Assembly (NCBI RefSeq): GCF_000384155.1
Contig: NZ_KB913031.1
Span: 1,302,001-1,366,000, forward strand
Direction of reading: 5' to 3'
Origin: Methylophilus sp. 42
Lineage (GTDB): Bacteria > Pseudomonadota > Gammaproteobacteria > Burkholderiales > Methylophilaceae
Length of the DNA: 64,000 bases
Shown here: one piece after another, positions 2,694 to 9,838 of the stretch
How positions within the stretch are numbered: the first letter of the stretch is position 1
How the letters are laid out: the number at the start of each line of letters is the position of its first letter
The notes under the pieces: model-generated
The model's input: only the letters and a program-made list of their open reading frames with translations
Database searches by the model: none
What the model was told of the DNA's origin: nothing
Position numbers and translations under genes: made by a program

Positions 2694-4925
2694 TCAAAAT
2701 CGATATTCGCCACTGACACCCCATAGCCGGGGTTCGTTATAAATCGCGATCTGATTACCTAAAAAGTCTTTTCCCTTGGCCACGGCAAATTGCTGGTTGG
2801 TCAGGTTTCTTACCCACACGCTCCATAGCCAGTGCTGGTTGTCCGTGGTGTAGTTGAGGCAACTGTTGAGCAAATTTCTCCTGGCAAGCTGGCTGGTTTC
2901 TGGCTCATTACTGATACCGCTATAAGTGGCTGATTGATAATAGTGCTGCAGGCTGGCTTCGAGTTTGCCTTTTAGCATGCCTGAGTGAAAACCATAACTT
3001 AGCGTGTTGGCCATACTCCAGCGTGGCGCGTCAGGCAGCGCCTGACTAGAGGCATCGGTGCCATTGGCACCACCACTGGGAAAGCGCAGGTAGCTGGCAT
3101 CCAGATAAGCCAGTGTTGAGTTGATATGCCATGCCTGGCCAATCGGGACTAGCGCGCTGAACTCCAGCCCTTGCGTTCTCACGCTGGCGGCATTGCGCAA
3201 CTGCAATACTTGCGTATTTGCGCCTAGCCGGGAAAACTGGAACACCTGGTAGTTGTCGTAATGATTCACAAACAGTACCGTGTTGAAATCAAACGCCCTG
3301 TGCTGGTAATGCCAGCCCAGCTCCAGACTATTTACAGACTCAGGCGCGAACGCATAACCATCCTGCACTTGTGCCCGATTCAGAAAATCCACATTCCAGC
3401 CCCCATTTTTATAGGTCCGTGCAAATTTGGCTAACAAGGTATTTCTTTGGTTGGGGTGATAGCTCACCGCTAGCAGTGGGGAGAAAAAGTGGTTAGCCAT
3501 GGCCTGCTTTTGCTGGTTCAAGGTACCGATACGAAAAGCGCCACTTTGTGAACCATCCAGGCTGAAATCCAGCTGCTTTTGCTCCCACTGGTAGCGGCCA
3601 CCTATGTGCAGCGTGAAAGGATCCAGATCGTAACTGGCATTGGCATACAAGGCCTGGGTCTGTGTATTTACCTTGGCCTGCAGCGGCACCACTGCACCTG
3701 CCATCACGCCAAAAGTGGCACCAAATGGGGTGAAAACAGTGGCTGATGGCCGTTTCACCAGTGTTGCCATATCGTTACCAAAAACCGCACGTCTGTCATT
3801 TGATTGCTCTTCCTGCGAGAAATACAGGCCAGCTACGTAGCGTAGCGCCGCCTGCGCATCCGAGCTGTAACGAAACTCCTGGCTGGTCAACTGCTGGCGG
3901 TCTTTATAGTAGGTTGCCAATACATCATTGCCGCTATAGTCATTATCCGTTTGCCGGTCATGTCTGTGGTCCCTGGCCGCCACGATCACCTCCAGTTGCG
4001 CTAGATTGGCCAACTGCCGCTCACTCTGGATGCTGAATCCTTGCGCCAAGGTGTGTGAAACGGGCTGCGTATTTACAAACACGCGTGAGAATGAATTGCC
4101 ACTTTGCGCTGGTTGACCAAACATACCGGTGAGTGGCTGGGCCAGAAAGTTCTGGTTGTTGAGGTCTGCATAGTCTGCATACAACTTCAAGCGATGCTGC
4201 TCACTGGTTTGTATCTGCAACTGAGCACGGGCGGATGTATTGTCCTGATCTTTCAGCGATTGACTGGTATGGTCATTCTCGACATAGCAGTCACGCGTTT
4301 CTTTTCTGATCGCGATACGGCTGTTGATATGCTCTGCGAGAGGCATATTCATGACCGCTGTGGTTTCGCGATAATCCAGATGACCAACCCCAAACTTAAT
4401 CTGCGCCTGGGGTGTGGCTGTGGCTTCTTGTGTTGTAACGCGGATCGCCCCGGTATCGGATTGATTGCCATGTGTATACCCCTGGGGGCCTTTGGCAATC
4501 TCCACTGCATCAATATCAAACAACAGGTTTTCCAGCGACATCGTGGGGCCAACATTCACGCCATCCACATATATCGCAGTACGTGCATCAAAACCGGCAT
4601 TTCTGCCACCACCACCCACGCCGCGAATATACGCACTTTTATAGACGCCATATTGCTGTATGGAAAAGTTGGGCAGCAAGGTGTTCAGCTGAGATAGCTG
4701 GCTCACATGTGCGTTTTGCAAGCTGTCGTCTGCAATTACCTCCGCCATTAATGGCGTGAGATGCGCCGCGGCATTTCTTTTGACGGCAGTGACTTCAACA
4801 TCGGGTAATTCGATCTCGTACACATCCTCTTCTGCAATTGCCGTTTTGCTAATGGTGATGGCTAATAGAAAAAGAATGCGTTGATTGAGACCGCGTGGAA
4901 CAGGAGAGACTGCTTGCATGGACAT
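2694..4925 (-). CDS. TonB-dependent outer membrane receptor
   Basis: This 743-residue protein has a signal peptide (LLAITISKTAIA, cleavage near residue 31) and then a plug domain. The plug carries the usual features: PNFSIQQYG, SAYIRGVGGGG, and YVDGVNVGPTMSLENLLFD followed by AVEIAKGPQG. A long beta-barrel follows and ends in a terminal Phe (SGEYRF), the outer-membrane sorting signal. Such receptors import siderophores, metal complexes, vitamins or sugars with TonB energy; the substrate is not evident. No TonB/ExbBD or ABC importer is nearby. The first ATG lies inside a perfect 16-bp inverted repeat, and a second in-frame ATG lies two codons later (4919), just outside it. A lanthanide role is only conceivable because xoxF lies 40 kb away. 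Confidence 0.93.
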   Translation of the reverse strand: MSMQAVSPVPRGLNQRILFLLAITISKTAIAEEDVYEIELPDVEVTAVKRNAAAHLTPLMAEVIADDSLQNAHVSQLSQLNTLLPNFSIQQYGVYKSAYIRGVGGGGRNAGFDARTAIYVDGVNVGPTMSLENLLFDIDAVEIAKGPQGYTHGNQSDTGAIRVTTQEATATPQAQIKFGVGHLDYRETTAVMNMPLAEHINSRIAIRKETRDCYVENDHTSQSLKDQDNTSARAQLQIQTSEQHRLKLYADYADLNNQNFLAQPLTGMFGQPAQSGNSFSRVFVNTQPVSHTLAQGFSIQSERQLANLAQLEVIVAARDHRHDRQTDNDYSGNDVLATYYKDRQQLTSQEFRYSSDAQAALRYVAGLYFSQEEQSNDRRAVFGNDMATLVKRPSATVFTPFGATFGVMAGAVVPLQAKVNTQTQALYANASYDLDPFTLHIGGRYQWEQKQLDFSLDGSQSGAFRIGTLNQQKQAMANHFFSPLLAVSYHPNQRNTLLAKFARTYKNGGWNVDFLNRAQVQDGYAFAPESVNSLELGWHYQHRAFDFNTVLFVNHYDNYQVFQFSRLGANTQVLQLRNAASVRTQGLEFSALVPIGQAWHINSTLAYLDASYLRFPSGGANGTDASSQALPDAPRWSMANTLSYGFHSGMLKGKLEASLQHYYQSATYSGISNEPETSQLARRNLLNSCLNYTTDNQHWLWSVWVRNLTNQQFAVAKGKDFLGNQIAIYNEPRLWGVSGEYRF

Positions 4926-5021: not shown

Positions 5022-5609
5022 TTAATCTTGAATACAGGTTTTTGTATGTTGTACCATTTTTCCATCCATGAGTTGTGTTGTTTCTTCTCCCAAGCGACAC
5101 TTCTTGTCGGCATCCAACACCCATACATTGTGATAGATTTCTGTATAACTAGAGATATTCCATGCCCAGATGGTTTCATGCCCTTGGCCATCAAGCGCAC
5201 TCACTTCTCTTAGCTTGCTATAGCCATTCAATTTCTTATCCATGATCTCTAACAAACTGGTTGCTGGCGTATCCCATATCAGCTTTGCCGTCGTTTTGTT
5301 CACTTTAAATAGCCACATAGGGCAGTCATGCGCACTACATAAACAGGCATGCGCAGGTTTCACCAAATACGCCTTTGTGGATTTGCTCAAACCCACTAAC
5401 TGTGCTTCAAATAAGTCATTGGGCTTAGTATCTTGGCAAGCGTTTATGCCGTCTGGAGCAATTTTTTTGCTTAGCTGAGCAATGATGGAGGAGGGAATCT
5501 TAGCCGGACTCTTCACTCTTTGCTCAGCACCAAACTCTTCAGCACTTTGAGCGCATAGAGCGATGAGTAACAGGGCGAATAAAGCGGTGATCGATGCTGA
5601 TAATTTCAT
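5022..5609 (-). CDS. Hypothetical secreted protein, 195 aa, cysteine-containing
   Basis: I do not recognise this family. The product has a clear Sec signal peptide (SITALFALLLIALCAQSA, cleavage near residue 23). The mature part holds six cysteines (INACQD, HACLCSAHDCPM, KKCRLG, KTCIQD), which suggests disulfide bonds in the periplasm. It lies about 100 bases upstream of the TonB receptor on the same strand and may be co-transcribed with it. Its 5' flank runs directly into the left repeat of the tRNA-Ser island (5624-5640), so its promoter region is at the island border. Confidence 0.7.
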   Translation of the reverse strand: MKLSASITALFALLLIALCAQSAEEFGAEQRVKSPAKIPSSIIAQLSKKIAPDGINACQDTKPNDLFEAQLVGLSKSTKAYLVKPAHACLCSAHDCPMWLFKVNKTTAKLIWDTPATSLLEIMDKKLNGYSKLREVSALDGQGHETIWAWNISSYTEIYHNVWVLDADKKCRLGEETTQLMDGKMVQHTKTCIQD

Positions 5610-5623
5610 AGGGTTAAGGCTTG

Positions 5624-5640
5624 TTGGCGGAGAAGGAGGG
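5624..5640. repeat. Distal attachment-site repeat (copy of tRNA-Ser 3' end)
   Basis: This is an exact 17-bp copy of 8262-8278. It does not belong to a second tRNA here: the bases after it (from 5641) do not continue the T arm. It marks the far end of the putative island, 15 bases upstream of the start of the secreted-protein gene. Confidence 0.75.
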
Positions 5641-5924
5641 CGTTGGAAAGTTCTTTATTACCATTAATAATCAATGAATTATATTTTTTAAGTGTAGCCG
5701 TGTGTAACGCAAGCGAGCAATTATTCATGAAGTCAGTCGATAGCGCAACCCTTGATAATGGGGTGCGAATCGCTGTGGGGGAACCGGTGGGCTAATTGTT
5801 GTACGAGGTAAGGAAAAGGCGCAAGGCTCCAGTGTGTCAAAAGGTGCACTGGAGGAGAGGTTTAGTTGTAGGCAGTACTTATAAGCCGAGCATATAACCC
5901 TTTTCTTGTCCGCCCTTTTGGCCG
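5641..5924. other. Non-coding left flank inside the island
   Basis: About 280 bases between the attachment repeat and the MgtC-like gene. The first part is AT-rich (ATTAATAATCAATGAATTATA) and could hold a promoter for the minus-strand secreted-protein gene. The remaining reading frames are short and without ribosome sites or recognisable content. No integrase remnant was recognised. Confidence 0.4.
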
Positions 5925-6647
5925 CTACTCTTTTATATTCGGACTCCAAAATGCCTGGGAGATAAAAGGGGAGGCTAGAAGTGTGTCTACAACTTGATTG
6001 AGCGAGTCGGTCTCAACGGAGTTGGCTAAGAGTGTTGCCTCAATCTCGATGCTGTCAGCACCAAACACATGCATTTGTAATTGCTGTACAGGAAAGTTGC
6101 CAGCTTCTAGGGTGCTTTCTAGCAATGCCAGGGCGTCCTTTTGGTTTGCTTTGAGTGCAATGACATAGAATGTGTTGGTCGCTTCAACACGCATGGTGTC
6201 AATCGGCTTCCTATTAATCCCATTCACAATGGGTCTAAGCACTGTATTGGTTGCTAAGACGAAGATAGTCCCCAGCACAGCCTCAAGGATTAAGTCAGCT
6301 CCTGCACAAGCTCCGACAGCAGCAGACCCCCAAAGGGTTGCAGCAGTATTGAGTCCACGCACATTGCCTTCTTCACGCATAATGACACCAGCACCTAAGA
6401 AGCCAATACCAGATACCACATATGCAACAATATGGACTGCTCCTTCATTGCCTGTGAGGCGGTTTCCCATATCGACAAAGATGGCAGCTCCAACGGCTAC
6501 CAGTACGTTAGTTCTCAGTCCCGCTGTACGCTGTCTGAATTGACGCTCAAAGCCAATCACCGAGCCGCATATAAAGGCCATGGTCAGGCTAATGGAGCTA
6601 TCTAACAGAGATACCAGGTTGATGTTTTGAATCACTTGTAATGTCAT
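5925..6647 (-). CDS. MgtC/SapB-family membrane protein
   Basis: This 240-residue protein has several hydrophobic helices in the first 150 residues and a soluble ACT-like C-terminal part. The MgtC/SapB signature is clear: GSVIGFERQFRQRTAGLRTNVLVAVGAA, SGIGFLGAGVIMREEGNVRGLNTAATLW, and a following GSAAVGACAG helix. Family members act in low-magnesium growth and, in some bacteria, inhibit the F1Fo ATPase; they are not proven magnesium transporters. It is divergent from the cation transporter gene with 208 bases between them, and both lie within the tRNA-Ser island. The link to metal stress is an inference. Confidence 0.88.
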   Translation of the reverse strand: MTLQVIQNINLVSLLDSSISLTMAFICGSVIGFERQFRQRTAGLRTNVLVAVGAAIFVDMGNRLTGNEGAVHIVAYVVSGIGFLGAGVIMREEGNVRGLNTAATLWGSAAVGACAGADLILEAVLGTIFVLATNTVLRPIVNGINRKPIDTMRVEATNTFYVIALKANQKDALALLESTLEAGNFPVQQLQMHVFGADSIEIEATLLANSVETDSLNQVVDTLLASPFISQAFWSPNIKE

Positions 6648-6855
6648 GACTTATCACACTATCCGAATCGCAGTTATTATTCTCAGTGCGCATAGTACAC
6701 GCTGTGTCAACGCTTGGCACTAGCTAAAGGTTTTAATCCTCAGCTCGAGCTAGATAAGGGGCTGTAGGTCGTTCCTGGGCAATTCGGCGGTTCTTACGCT
6801 GGTGGAGTTGCTAGGCGTATAATCAACTCATACCAACCATGTTCCAGGTTTACTA

Positions 6856-7554
6856 ATGGCAAGCTGCTGCGAAGACAAAGGATGTGAAGTAACGGCTTTA
6901 AGGGAATCTCATGGCCGTGTGCTTTGGGCTGTCCTAGTCATCAATGCTGTGATGTTTGTAGTTGAAGCTTACTCTGGCATAGTTGCTCACTCTACGTCAC
7001 TGCTGGCTGACTCTCTGGACATGCTAGGTGATGCGATTGTTTACGGCTTCAGTCTGTTTGTCTTGGCTAAGTCTCTACGCTGGCAAGCTTTAGCTGCTGT
7101 GATTAAAGGCGTGTTCATGCTGGTGTTTGGTATTGGCGTATTGTTAGAGGCTGTCTACAAGGTCTTCAATCCAGTTGTGCCTAATGCTGAACTTATGGGG
7201 ACGATAGGTGCGCTTGCTCTGTTTGCTAACCTCGTTTGCTTTGGCATGCTTTATAGACATCGAAGCGATAACTTAAACATGAGTTCGACCTGGTTATGCT
7301 CTCGAAATGACCTGATTGCCAATGTAGGCGTGTTGATTGCAGCGGGTGCCAGCTACTGGTTAACCTCACGCTGGCCTGATATTGCGGTAGGGACACTTAT
7401 TGCTGGTCTGTTCCTGCATTCCTCTGCGTCTGTCCTTAAGGAAGCACTCGACGAGTTGCGTAAGCCGCCTTCAGAACCAGTTAAGCATCCCCAGGCTGTG
7501 GCAGTTGGTGTCGGTATGCCTGTTAGACGCAACAAAAAGACAACAGTAGACTAA
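6856..7554 (+). CDS. Cation diffusion facilitator-type transporter, short form
   Basis: This 232-residue membrane protein resembles the transmembrane part of CDF transporters. SLLADSLDMLGDA (helix II) and NDLIANVGVLIAAGAS (helix V) hold the Asp residues that form the metal site. The usual histidine in the helix V pair appears replaced by the N/D of SRNDLIAN. The C-terminal cytoplasmic metal-binding domain is absent; the protein ends in a short basic tail. An N-terminal CCEDKGC motif may bind metal. CDF proteins export Zn, Co, Cd or similar ions against protons. A TATAAT box lies at 6818-6823. The gene ends exactly where the oppositely oriented 46-codon gene ends. Confidence 0.82.
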   Translation: MASCCEDKGCEVTALRESHGRVLWAVLVINAVMFVVEAYSGIVAHSTSLLADSLDMLGDAIVYGFSLFVLAKSLRWQALAAVIKGVFMLVFGIGVLLEAVYKVFNPVVPNAELMGTIGALALFANLVCFGMLYRHRSDNLNMSSTWLCSRNDLIANVGVLIAAGASYWLTSRWPDIAVGTLIAGLFLHSSASVLKEALDELRKPPSEPVKHPQAVAVGVGMPVRRNKKTTVD

Positions 7555-7695
7555 TCAGTCCTCAAGCCTCACCTGCATTTTCTCAACCCTTTTAAGTTGG
7601 TTGTCCGTAAATCGCTCTACTACAGAGATTCGTATTATGTAGATAGCAACTGCGACACAAGCAAAGAAAGCGATGTTGATTAGGTATCTCTTCAT
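7555..7695 (-). CDS. Small single-pass membrane protein, 46 aa
   Basis: A 46-codon reading frame (start ATG 7695, stop TGA 7557-7555) reads MKRYLINIAFFACVAVAIYI then a charged amphipathic tail ending VEKMQVRLED. It has one strong transmembrane helix (residues 5-25) with a positive N-terminus. It lies 10 bases behind the 118-residue membrane protein gene on the same strand, so the two look like one transcription unit. Its stop abuts that of the cation transporter. There is no recognised family, and the coding status rests on position, membrane segment and frame only. Confidence 0.5.
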   Translation of the reverse strand: MKRYLINIAFFACVAVAIYIIRISVVERFTDNQLKRVEKMQVRLED

Positions 7696-7705
7696 TTTTT
7701 AATAA

Positions 7706-8062
7706 TTAAAATACCAACTTCCAGCATTCGTTTTTTAAGGTCTCACAGAGGAATTTTTGCTTATTCAGCCTTTTCTCTAATCTGAAGCTGGTTCCGTTCT
7801 CGACTTGAAGTTTGCCATAAACGAGGTAAGTGTCTTTATCCGTTTCAATCTTAGTATTGTCTGAGCTAAAAGTGCTAGGTATGAAGACTGCCTTAACTAA
7901 ATGCCCGGCGTTAACAGAGTCTACTACTTGGGCTTGCCTAGCTTTGTTGGATTCTCTTAGAGAGTATCCAGCAATAATAAATAAGGCCACGAAGAAAAAT
8001 ACAGCTACATATGATTTTGAGTTTCCCCTAGCTTCCTGGCTGCCTATTCTATTAGTTTTCAT
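7706..8062 (-). CDS. Hypothetical membrane-anchored protein, 118 aa
   Basis: Not a family I recognise. A hydrophilic N-terminus of about 16 residues is followed by one transmembrane helix (YVAVFFFVALFIIAGYSL, residues 18-35). A periplasmic domain of about 80 residues follows with two cysteines near the end (FLCETLKNECWKLVF) that could form a disulfide. It is the nearest island gene to tRNA-Ser and is followed closely by the 46-residue membrane protein. Codon use is richer in A/T third positions than in the neighbouring housekeeping genes, consistent with acquired DNA. Confidence 0.6.
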   Translation of the reverse strand: MKTNRIGSQEARGNSKSYVAVFFFVALFIIAGYSLRESNKARQAQVVDSVNAGHLVKAVFIPSTFSSDNTKIETDKDTYLVYGKLQVENGTSFRLEKRLNKQKFLCETLKNECWKLVF

Positions 8063-8261
8063 ACATCAACTATTTTCTCATTTTGTAATAATCTAAATTG
8101 TATAGTATCAATCGAGTCGAGCGAGACTCTCTAATGCTAATCACACTAGCGCGGCTTATCTTGAATCCTTAGCAACTGATTTACAGATACTCACCGGTGT
8201 GGTCTTTAGTGTTTAAACTGAGGGTGATCTCACGCTTAGGCGAGTAGTGGCTTAATAAATC

Positions 8262-8278
8262 TTGGCGGAGAAGGAGGG
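8262..8278. repeat. Attachment-site repeat at the tRNA-Ser 3' end
   Basis: This copy of the 17-bp repeat covers the encoded CCA, the 3' acceptor strand and the first bases of the T arm of tRNA-Ser. It is identical to 5624-5640. It would be the tRNA-restoring junction of the island. Confidence 0.75.
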
Positions 8279-8353
8279 ATTCGAACCCTCGATACGCTTT
8301 CACGTATGCCTGATTTCGAGTCAGGTACATTCAACCAGCTCTGCCACTTCTCC
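8263..8353 (-). tRNA. tRNA-Ser (anticodon CGA)
   Basis: Read on the minus strand, the gene begins GGAGAAGTGGC and ends CTTCTCCGCCA, with the CCA encoded. The acceptor stem GGAGAAG/CTTCTCC is perfect. The anticodon arm is CCTGA-CTCGAAA-TCAGG, giving anticodon CGA (reads UCG). A long variable arm (CATACGTGAAAGCGTATC) confirms the class II serine type, and the T loop is GTTCGAATC. The 3' end doubles as the attachment site of the putative island. Confidence 0.96.
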
Positions 8354-8458
8354 GGGATGTTTTGCAACCTTTTGACACTCCAAAAGGTGGCTGGGCGATT
8401 AGTCTACACTGTGGCGCGCGTGCTGTTCAACAAAAATATAATGGCTTTTATTGGGCGA

Positions 8459-9838
8459 TTATTGCAGTGGCAGCACGATTTGGATCAGCAGGCCAGAAGC
8501 GGGTACTGGTTTGTTGCTGATGGATAGTTTTCCACCATGTTTTTCAACAATCATGCGGGCGATGGCGAGGCCGAGGCCGGTGCCGCCTGTTTGGCGTGAG
8601 CGGGAATCTTCCAATCTGCGGAATGGTTCCAGTACATTGCTCAGTTCTTGTGGCGGGATGCCGGGACCGTCGTCAGAAATCACGAAAATGACCTGTTTGT
8701 CTTCTGCGTGCAGTGACAGGGCAGGAGTTTGCGCATAGGCAATTGCGTTATTCAGCAAGTTGGTCAGGCAACGCGTTAACAAATGTGCCGAGCCGAGGAT
8801 GGTAATGGACTGTGTGGGCAGGCTGCTGGCGATGGCATGGCCAGCATCTTCAAAGTCATCGCATACGGCGGTTGCCAGCGCGGTCAGATCGACTTTGCTT
8901 TTATGGATGTTTTCACCGCACAGGCGGGCAAAGTCCAGGCCTTCGCGCACCATGGCCTGGGTGGCGGTGAGGTCTTTGATCAAGCCTTGTTTTAACTCCT
9001 GGTCTTTGACTTTTTCCAGGCGCAAACGCAAGCGCGTGAGAGGGGTTTGCAGATCGTGTGCAATCGCACCCAGAATAAAGCCACGCTCCTGAATATGCTT
9101 GAGGATGCTGCGCTGCATTTCGTTAAAGGCTTTGGCAGCATGGCGCACCTCGGTGGAGCCTTCATTTTCAGGCAAAGGTGCGTGCTCAATATTGTGTGCC
9201 AGTTGTAAGGCGGCGTTTGCCAGTTTGCGCAATGGCTGAGTGGCAACAGAAGCCACGGCCCAGATAATGCTGATCAAGCCAAAGAATGCCAGCACAATGG
9301 TGAGCGGGTTGCGTTCATGTGGTGGCCCGGCCGGTGGGCGATGACCGCCGTAGTGCAGTTCGATCAACACAGATGTATTGTCTTCAAGGTGGGTGTAAAC
9401 CGCCAGGCATTGACCATGAGGATGCGGCGGTGGTGCACCAAAGCCGGGCGGTGGTGGCGGTGGGCGGCGCGGGGCGCAATGGCTGGGCTTGGACAGGCTG
9501 ATAAAGTCAGCCACTTCTGGCACCAGCAAGTTGTTGAGGTTGGCTAATTCTGCAGGCAACAGCGGCGCATTTTGCGGCGGTTCTACGCCCAATGTGACAT
9601 GGCTGCCCATACGTTTAAACACGTCCTGAATCTCGGAGCGTTTTTCGGGCACGGTCGCCTCGAGGATGCGGATCATGCTTTCAATGCGGTCGAAGGCGAA
9701 CTGGTCGCGCAGGCGCGTTTCATTTTCGCGTGAGTCGCGTTGCCCCAGCATGCTCACTACCGTCGCGGTGAGCAGAATCCCAATGACGGTAATCAGGAAG
9801 ATACGGACCGACATGGTGCCCAGCAGTTTCTTTATCAT
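8459..9838 (-). CDS. Sensor histidine kinase with His/Pro-rich periplasmic domain
   Basis: This OmpR-class sensor kinase has a first membrane helix at about residues 12-32 and a periplasmic region to about 178. A second helix (about 180-200) is followed by a HAMP segment, the H box AIAHDLQTPLTRLR (His about 262), and then the N box (NLLNNAIAYA), G1 (SDDGPGIP) and G2 (GGTGLGLAI). The periplasmic region carries an unusual HCAPRRPPPPPPGFG stretch followed by PPPHPHG and a second His/Pro patch near 163-176, which could bind metal. It sits 30 bases behind the response regulator, with a Spy-like gene upstream. The ATG at 9838 is preferred to the GTG one codon earlier. Confidence 0.93.
   Translation of the reverse strand: MIKKLLGTMSVRIFLITVIGILLTATVVSMLGQRDSRENETRLRDQFAFDRIESMIRILEATVPEKRSEIQDVFKRMGSHVTLGVEPPQNAPLLPAELANLNNLLVPEVADFISLSKPSHCAPRRPPPPPPGFGAPPPHPHGQCLAVYTHLEDNTSVLIELHYGGHRPPAGPPHERNPLTIVLAFFGLISIIWAVASVATQPLRKLANAALQLAHNIEHAPLPENEGSTEVRHAAKAFNEMQRSILKHIQERGFILGAIAHDLQTPLTRLRLRLEKVKDQELKQGLIKDLTATQAMVREGLDFARLCGENIHKSKVDLTALATAVCDDFEDAGHAIASSLPTQSITILGSAHLLTRCLTNLLNNAIAYAQTPALSLHAEDKQVIFVISDDGPGIPPQELSNVLEPFRRLEDSRSRQTGGTGLGLAIARMIVEKHGGKLSISNKPVPASGLLIQIVLPLQ

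Follow-up and report, generated by a model that had tools for sequence, protein, structure and literature searches.

A tRNA-Ser(CGA) genomic island of Methylophilus sp. 42, probably decayed, with an integrase relic and retained cargo

Layout of the element

A 2.6-kb block on the 3' side of tRNA-Ser(CGA) in Methylophilus sp. 42 is most probably a genomic island that was integrated by an integrase of the type found intact in a congeneric genome, G007, and that then decayed to a remnant resembling a cis-mobilizable element (CIME), with its cargo under purifying selection. Four parts of this model are observed directly: the duplication of the target, an empty site, a relic of the integrase and a matching distal attachment arm. 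The element was analysed within a stretch of 64,000 nucleotides (contig NZ_KB913031.1, positions 1,302,001 to 1,366,000), hereafter the window, and coordinates without a locus number refer to it. Related genomes are designated by G numbers. The features are as follows.

5624 to 5640, plus strand: distal att copy, a 17-bp duplicate of the tRNA-Ser(CGA) 3' end, the left flank of which continues into the empty site of G016
5663 to 5681: distal arm motif of 19 bp, common to the islands of G007 and G015 at tRNA-Ser(CGA)
5925 to 6647, minus strand: mgtC-like gene (mgtC), 240 aa; PF02308, E = 4.4e-35, and PF21770, E = 2e-9
6856 to 7554, plus strand: short CDF-type cation transporter gene (cdf), 232 aa; PF01545, E = 8.6e-22, and TIGR01297 above cut-off
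7555 to 7695, minus strand: s46, a small protein of 46 aa with a membrane segment predicted by eye
7706 to 8062, minus strand: s118, a protein of 118 aa with one N-terminal membrane segment predicted by eye
8196 to 8264, minus strand: relic of the N-terminus of a tyrosine-type integrase, from tblastn and a profile, reaching the tRNA 3' end
8262 to 8278, plus strand: proximal att copy, within the tRNA gene except for one base
8263 to 8353, minus strand: tRNA-Ser(CGA), intact (ARAGORN), 100% identical to the tRNA at the empty site of G016

A scan of the window placed exact copies of TTGGCGGAGAAGGAGGG on the plus strand at 5624-5640 and 8262-8278, with no further copy in the window at up to 3 mismatches; at that setting shuffled sequences gave a mean of 0.09 matches and two or more matches in 1 of 100. 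Across the 2.97 Mb of the whole genome there is no exact copy beyond these two. Since ARAGORN puts tRNA-Ser(CGA) at 8263-8353, the repeat consists of the last 16 bases of the tRNA and one further base. The sequence-only reading had described a 17-bp repeat matching the tRNA 3' end and an element on the 3' side of the tRNA, and both descriptions agree with these placements. The element is thus bounded by direct repeats of the tRNA 3' end and lies 3' of the tRNA, as in tRNA-associated genomic islands. The G+C content of the island is 45.1% against 50.3% for the window, and s118 is lowest at 38.9%. This is weak evidence of foreign origin, as a 195-aa gene outside the island, on the native side, has a G+C content of 43.4%, below those of mgtC and cdf; codon use, compared as GC and GC3 alone, is likewise weak evidence.

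Empty and occupied sites in the genus

The tRNA and its 5' neighbour served as a DNA query against 22 genomes of the genus, one per species and including that of the window. Fifteen other genomes yielded a tRNA-Ser(CGA) site, and the 3' sequence analysed was mostly 15-16 kb long; at two of these sites the contig stops short, at 2.6 kb in G021 and at 1.3 kb in G019. No close match to the tRNA was obtained in 6 of the 22 genomes (G008, G011, G012, G013, G018 and G020), two of which are 99% complete, so tRNA-Ser(CGA) may be dispensable.

The closest genome by DNA at this site is G016, with 86% identity over the 638-base query, the others reaching at most 77% over comparable stretches; by identity of the histidine-kinase protein, G015 (96.1%) and G016 (95.7%) are level. 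In G016 the sequence corresponding to that left of 5624 runs straight into the tRNA through a single 17-bp core, and the tRNA is directly adjoined by a relative of the 195-aa gene located left of 5624 in the window. When the window flanks were joined with one core, they aligned with G016 across the junction at 82% over 778 columns. A close relative thus has the single-core empty site expected opposite a tRNA-associated island, as had been predicted from the sequence. None of the four cargo genes is present at the G016 site. Among all 15 congeneric sites, two of which end at contig ends, tblastn at E = 1e-3 detected mgtC, cdf and s46 at none and s118 at one, in G007; the gene block is therefore not conserved beside this tRNA in all relatives, a pattern that would have spoken against an island.

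At 3 of the 15 sites, as in the window, the end of the tRNA is directly repeated on its 3' side, and the repeats bound islands of 8.7 kb in G007, 5.6 kb in G002 and 1.2 kb in G015. Three other candidate repeats, each with 3 mismatches, in G002, G003 and G010 were taken as chance. G003 provides the empty site for the G002 island, the joined flanks matching at 97.9% over 919 bases.

The left flank itself varies among relatives. A TonB-dependent receptor gene lies at 2694-4925, between hpt and the 195-aa gene; it is also beside hpt in G007, at 82% identity, and is absent in G016, where the hpt and 195-aa neighbours are about 27 bp apart.

Cargo genes

The sequence-only reading had listed an MgtC-like gene, a short CDF-type transporter gene and two small open reading frames between the repeats. 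The list was borne out by the matches to PF02308 and PF01545, while s46 and s118 have no family above cut-off in Pfam or NCBIfam; sub-cut-off matches of these two frames to phage proteins (E = 0.095 and 0.021, respectively) were taken as chance. A search for solved structures of the CDF protein with phmmer returned a single match, to a RecA chain at E = 0.007, which is spurious.

Both larger genes occur together in an island of approximately 11.4 kb at tRNA-Ser(GGA) in G016 (L082 3757-15222), which is bounded by repeats of the 3' end of that tRNA and carries mgtC, cdf, a gene for a 111-aa protein, a 415-aa integrase and a resolvase. The MgtC proteins of the window and of this island are identical over 240 of 240 residues, with 31 synonymous and 0 nonsynonymous codon changes; dN is 0.0 and dS 0.20, below all 8 flanking genes compared (0.39-1.19). 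The CDF proteins are identical at 211 of 228 residues (93%), with dN 0.044 and a dS of 0.43 that is not unusual. Against G006, cdf has a dS of 0.53, and the two flanking genes compared have 1.98 (galU) and 3.3 (a response regulator). These low values relative to the flanking genes argue for lateral exchange: movement of cdf between lineages is very likely, and mgtC was probably exchanged after the lineages of the window and G016 had split. The substitution pattern also suggests that the cargo is under purifying selection. The product of s46 resembles the N-terminus of the 111-aa protein of the G016 island (46.5% over 43 aa, E = 4e-10).

The sole relative found for s118 lies beside tRNA-Ser(CGA) in G007, at 59-63% identity. 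The gene occurs in 2 of 150 genomes of the family, namely those of the window and G007, and in 1 of 274 genomes of the class, that of the window. A phage origin was considered for s118 and rejected, as 23 stretches in viral contigs matched a pattern and none was confirmed.

The genes mgtC and cdf are divergent in the window and convergent in G016, which indicates that blocks have been rearranged. A simple internal deletion of the G016 tRNA-Ser(GGA) island was rejected as the origin of the element, since orientation, integrase family and arms all differ. Nor do mgtC and cdf form a widespread pair: of 60 cdf loci, examined with flanks of 1.5 to 8 kb and including some genomes twice, 2 have mgtC alongside, and both are in G016. 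In M. rhizosphaerae (G006) and in a Methylophilus MAG (G021), cdf also lies in what read as metal and arsenic clusters. Six other Methylophilus genomes have relatives of mgtC at 69-73% DNA identity, none of which lies within about 1.5 kb of a tRNA, and a second MgtC-family gene lies elsewhere in the genome of the window; the family is therefore not new to the genus. A search for plasmid copies of the block gave 23 records at 60-80% identity, none of which covered 80% of it. The cargo is modular and drawn from a gene pool common to Methylophilus genomes. From the family names alone, its role may be in metal or magnesium homeostasis.

The sharing of mgtC and cdf with an island that has a different integrase family, a different tRNA and a permuted order, the low dS of mgtC and the position of its relatives away from tRNA genes leave room for a further step, in which both genes were recombined into the island from another island or locus, such as the G016 tRNA-Ser(GGA) island. 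Such a swap is compatible with integration and decay and is not exclusive of them; we regard it as possible, though on balance doubtful. The relative of s118 at the same tRNA in G007 weighs against it, indicating that at least s118 belongs with the tRNA-Ser(CGA) site, as does the tRNA-Ser(GGA) site of the window genome, which now holds no island and has a helix-hairpin-helix gene (comEA-like by reading) directly beside it.

Integrases of the related islands

In G007 a 522-aa protein is encoded beside the tRNA and matches DUF6538 (E = 2e-19), Int_N (5e-6) and a SAM-like domain (3e-4) in Pfam, with no match to PF00589 at E = 0.01. The 413-aa protein of G002 and the 415-aa protein of G016 are encoded at the far ends of their islands and match PF00589 at 4e-14 and 3e-16, respectively. 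The G007 integrase is 25% identical to that of G002 over 203 aa (E = 1e-5), and those of G002 and G016 are 47% identical. All three islands also have a resolvase-family protein according to Pfam. No transfer genes were found among 7 Pfam-scanned open reading frames from the G007, G002 and G015 set.

The single long open reading frame of the G015 island encodes a DUF2846 protein. This island matches that of G007 over a distal 167 bp (89%), an internal 209 bp (85%) and a proximal 179 bp (94%), and keeps the first 21 codons of the integrase, 100% identical to G007, the remainder being gone. On these alignments the G015 island reads as a deleted relative of the G007 island and as a visible intermediate. 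Left of the 8.7-kb island of G007 (L035 4719-6440) lie a Mutator-family (IS256-type) transposase gene and the s118 relative, which suggests the relic of an older island at the same tRNA.

Integrase relic in the window

Ten island proteins, four of them integrases, were compared with window positions 5401-8500 by tblastn. One integrase match fell below E = 0.5, that of G007 residues 22-44 to 8264-8196 on the minus strand, with 48% identity and E = 3e-4 (0.005 in a larger search). The match comprises about 20 codons between s118 and the tRNA, in the same orientation as in the intact G007 island, and corresponds to the part of the G007 protein assigned to DUF6538 by Pfam.

A profile of the integrase N-terminus built from 16 of 21 loci (the other five were left out by choice, two of them having short frames) recovered the relic from the six-frame translation of the window at E = 7e-4; it was the sole place below E = 1, the next scoring 2.7. 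Repeat profiles of 20, 21, 19, 8 and 7 loci each ranked the relic first, at E = 8e-4, 2e-4, 1.5e-3, 5e-5 and 7e-5, respectively, with the next best at 1.5 or worse; the sets of 19 and 7 exclude G007, and those of 8 and 7 were picked after the fact. Of the 44 family sites that matched the tRNA query, 30 were also scanned with the first profile, over as much as 1.5 kb 3' of the tRNA. Four matches reached E = 0.05 or better, each on the strand of the tRNA: the intact gene of G007 and relics in G015, in the window and in G087, a genome of another genus of the family. G007 belonged to this profile, and the same four led when it was left out. The G087 relic starts 18 bp from the tRNA with its frame open into the tRNA, the C-terminal half of this broken integrase is in a different frame, and 18 kb of sequence yielded no second core.

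The sequence-only reading had stated that there is no integrase. This stands for an intact gene, and fails for the fragment of about 20 codons at 8196-8264. The element accordingly has no integrase open reading frame of the kind that Islander-type islands contain and has lost its integration genes, as CIMEs have; with its integrase reduced to such a relic, it is a decayed island and not an autonomous one. No G007-type integrase was found in the host genome at E = 1e-15. The genome has six tyrosine recombinases, one of them distantly related to the G007 integrase; this is a 475-aa frame near tRNA-Gly(ccc) (G000:C1:119918-120442, L155), with 28% identity over the C-terminal half (E = 4e-15).

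Attachment arms

The distal arm motif matches the distal arm of G007 at 18 of 19 positions and lies 22 bases from the core, against 24 in G007. The score of the distal arm against G007 or G015 was reached by 0 of 1000 shuffles in each case, though the distal arms of G007 and G015 are 89% alike and so are not independent comparisons. The motif fits the IHF consensus, so part of the 19-bp match may reflect binding of a host factor. There was no match of the window distal arm to G002 or G016, 554 and 917 of 1000 shuffles scoring as high; the arms of G002 and G016 are similar to each other (0 and 3 of 1000 shuffles). On the tRNA side, the window arm has no similarity to that of G007, 860 of 1000 shuffles being as good. 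The element therefore keeps both cores and the distal arm motif, and a G007-like tRNA-side arm was not detected. An integrase of the G002 or G016 type was rejected as the agent of integration, as neither arm is similar and there is no relic match.

Origin of the element

Under the preferred model, a G007-type integrase, the gene of which would have adjoined the tRNA and pointed away from it, would have recombined the island site-specifically into the 3' end of tRNA-Ser(CGA). The tRNA would have been made whole again by this integration, with its former 17-bp 3' end now lying at 5624. Subsequent deletions, which we infer, would have taken away the tRNA-side arm together with the start and most of the integrase gene; the 2.6-kb remainder is probably unable to leave, and the MgtC-like gene, the short CDF transporter gene and the two small-protein genes would have been retained by selection. 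The sequence-only reading had offered decay or mobilisation by the recombinase of another element. Decay is favoured, because the integrase relic sits in the expected place; mobilisation in trans is little supported, because no G007-like tRNA-side arm was found. Counterpoints to this model are that the relic is short and its match overlaps the core by 3 bases, when the frame begins farther from the tRNA in most relatives, and a deletion ending by chance so near the core is somewhat lucky; that the tRNA-side arm is unlike that of G007; that the distal match could in part be a host-factor site; and that the G007 protein has no PF00589 match at E = 0.01.

Mobilisation in trans supposes that the integrase was already truncated before integration and that the G007-type integrase of another element inserted the window copy, much as for miniature elements that keep only their ends. 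The mini-islands of the window and G015 both keep two cores and the distal arm with truncated integrases, the window relic reaches the core edge, the G087 relic lies 18 bp from the tRNA, and an intact integrase of the right type is present at tRNA-Ser(CGA) in G007. Nevertheless, in addition to the undetected tRNA-side arm, the host genome offers none but a distant relative of the required integrase and no third exact copy of the core, and the G015 cargo differs from that of the window, so that the two islands are not copies of one element. We consider this origin unlikely. Its extension to the genus, in which tiny non-autonomous tRNA-Ser elements of Methylophilus, consisting of attachment ends and swappable membrane-transport cargo, would be moved in trans by full-length islands and would circulate metal-transport genes between two serine tRNA sites with unlike integrases, appears rather improbable.

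Integrase genes that span the attachment site are described for the viruses SSV and Mx8 in the available text of PMC4383910, and in such a gene integration itself would remove the first codons. The frame of the window relic is open into the tRNA, as is that of G087 at the same tRNA; against this, of the 9 relatives that combine a long frame with a tRNA close by, 8 have a frame beginning 65-104 bp from the tRNA and one at 17 bp, and the YYFRRRVP-like stretch that is conserved in relatives ahead of the relic residues is absent from the window, making this origin very improbable. A chance repeat around native genes can be dismissed, given the G016 empty site, the two genomic occurrences of the exact repeat and the independently occupied sites of G015, G007 and G002. 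Integration followed by decay thus remains the preferred account.

Relation to known elements

The sequence-only reading had called metal-related cargo without its own recombinase unusual, which was overstated, as CIMEs are a described class and small islands with tRNA repeats are reported in this family, according to the available portions of the sources cited below. CIMEs are integrase-less elements that keep their att sites (PMC5704250, in the available text, citing Pavlovic 2004 and Bellanger 2011). The window element likewise lost its integration genes and keeps its att cores, and G007 resembles the accretion of a newer island beside an older relic at the same tRNA. It differs in that the undetected G007-like tRNA-side arm means that cis-mobilisation may not work, and, CIMEs being derived from ICEs or IMEs, it is CIME-like by its lost integrase and kept cores alone. 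Among tRNA-targeted islands identified by Islander, the restored tRNA and the displaced 3' fragment mark the ends, as they do here (PMC4383910, available text).

In the same bacterial family, the available text of PMC10872708 describes additive flexible genomic islands of Methylophilaceae, which are variable, from 330 bp to 42 kb in size and preceded by repeats of a tRNA 3' end, and another type of island flanked by tRNA-Ser(gga). The additive islands are at tRNA-Lys in Ca. Methylopumilus, whereas the present site is tRNA-Ser(CGA) in Methylophilus, a word absent from the main text of that paper. Judged by titles and the openings of abstracts, none of the top literature matches describes a Methylophilus island at tRNA-Ser(CGA). 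Decayed tRNA islands that retain cargo are a known kind; the trail through relatives is unusually clear here.

Significance

Islander, in the available text of PMC4383910, requires an integrase frame and a length of at least 2 kb, and would therefore discard the islands of the window and G015. By such stated rules, finders that require an integrase would miss the window island. At one tRNA of one genus, the sites compared form a series in the death of an island, from the full island of G007 through the partly deleted island of G015 and the almost erased one of the window to the empty site of G016. Islands with unlike integrases share cargo in Methylophilus, and mgtC was apparently exchanged after the species had split.
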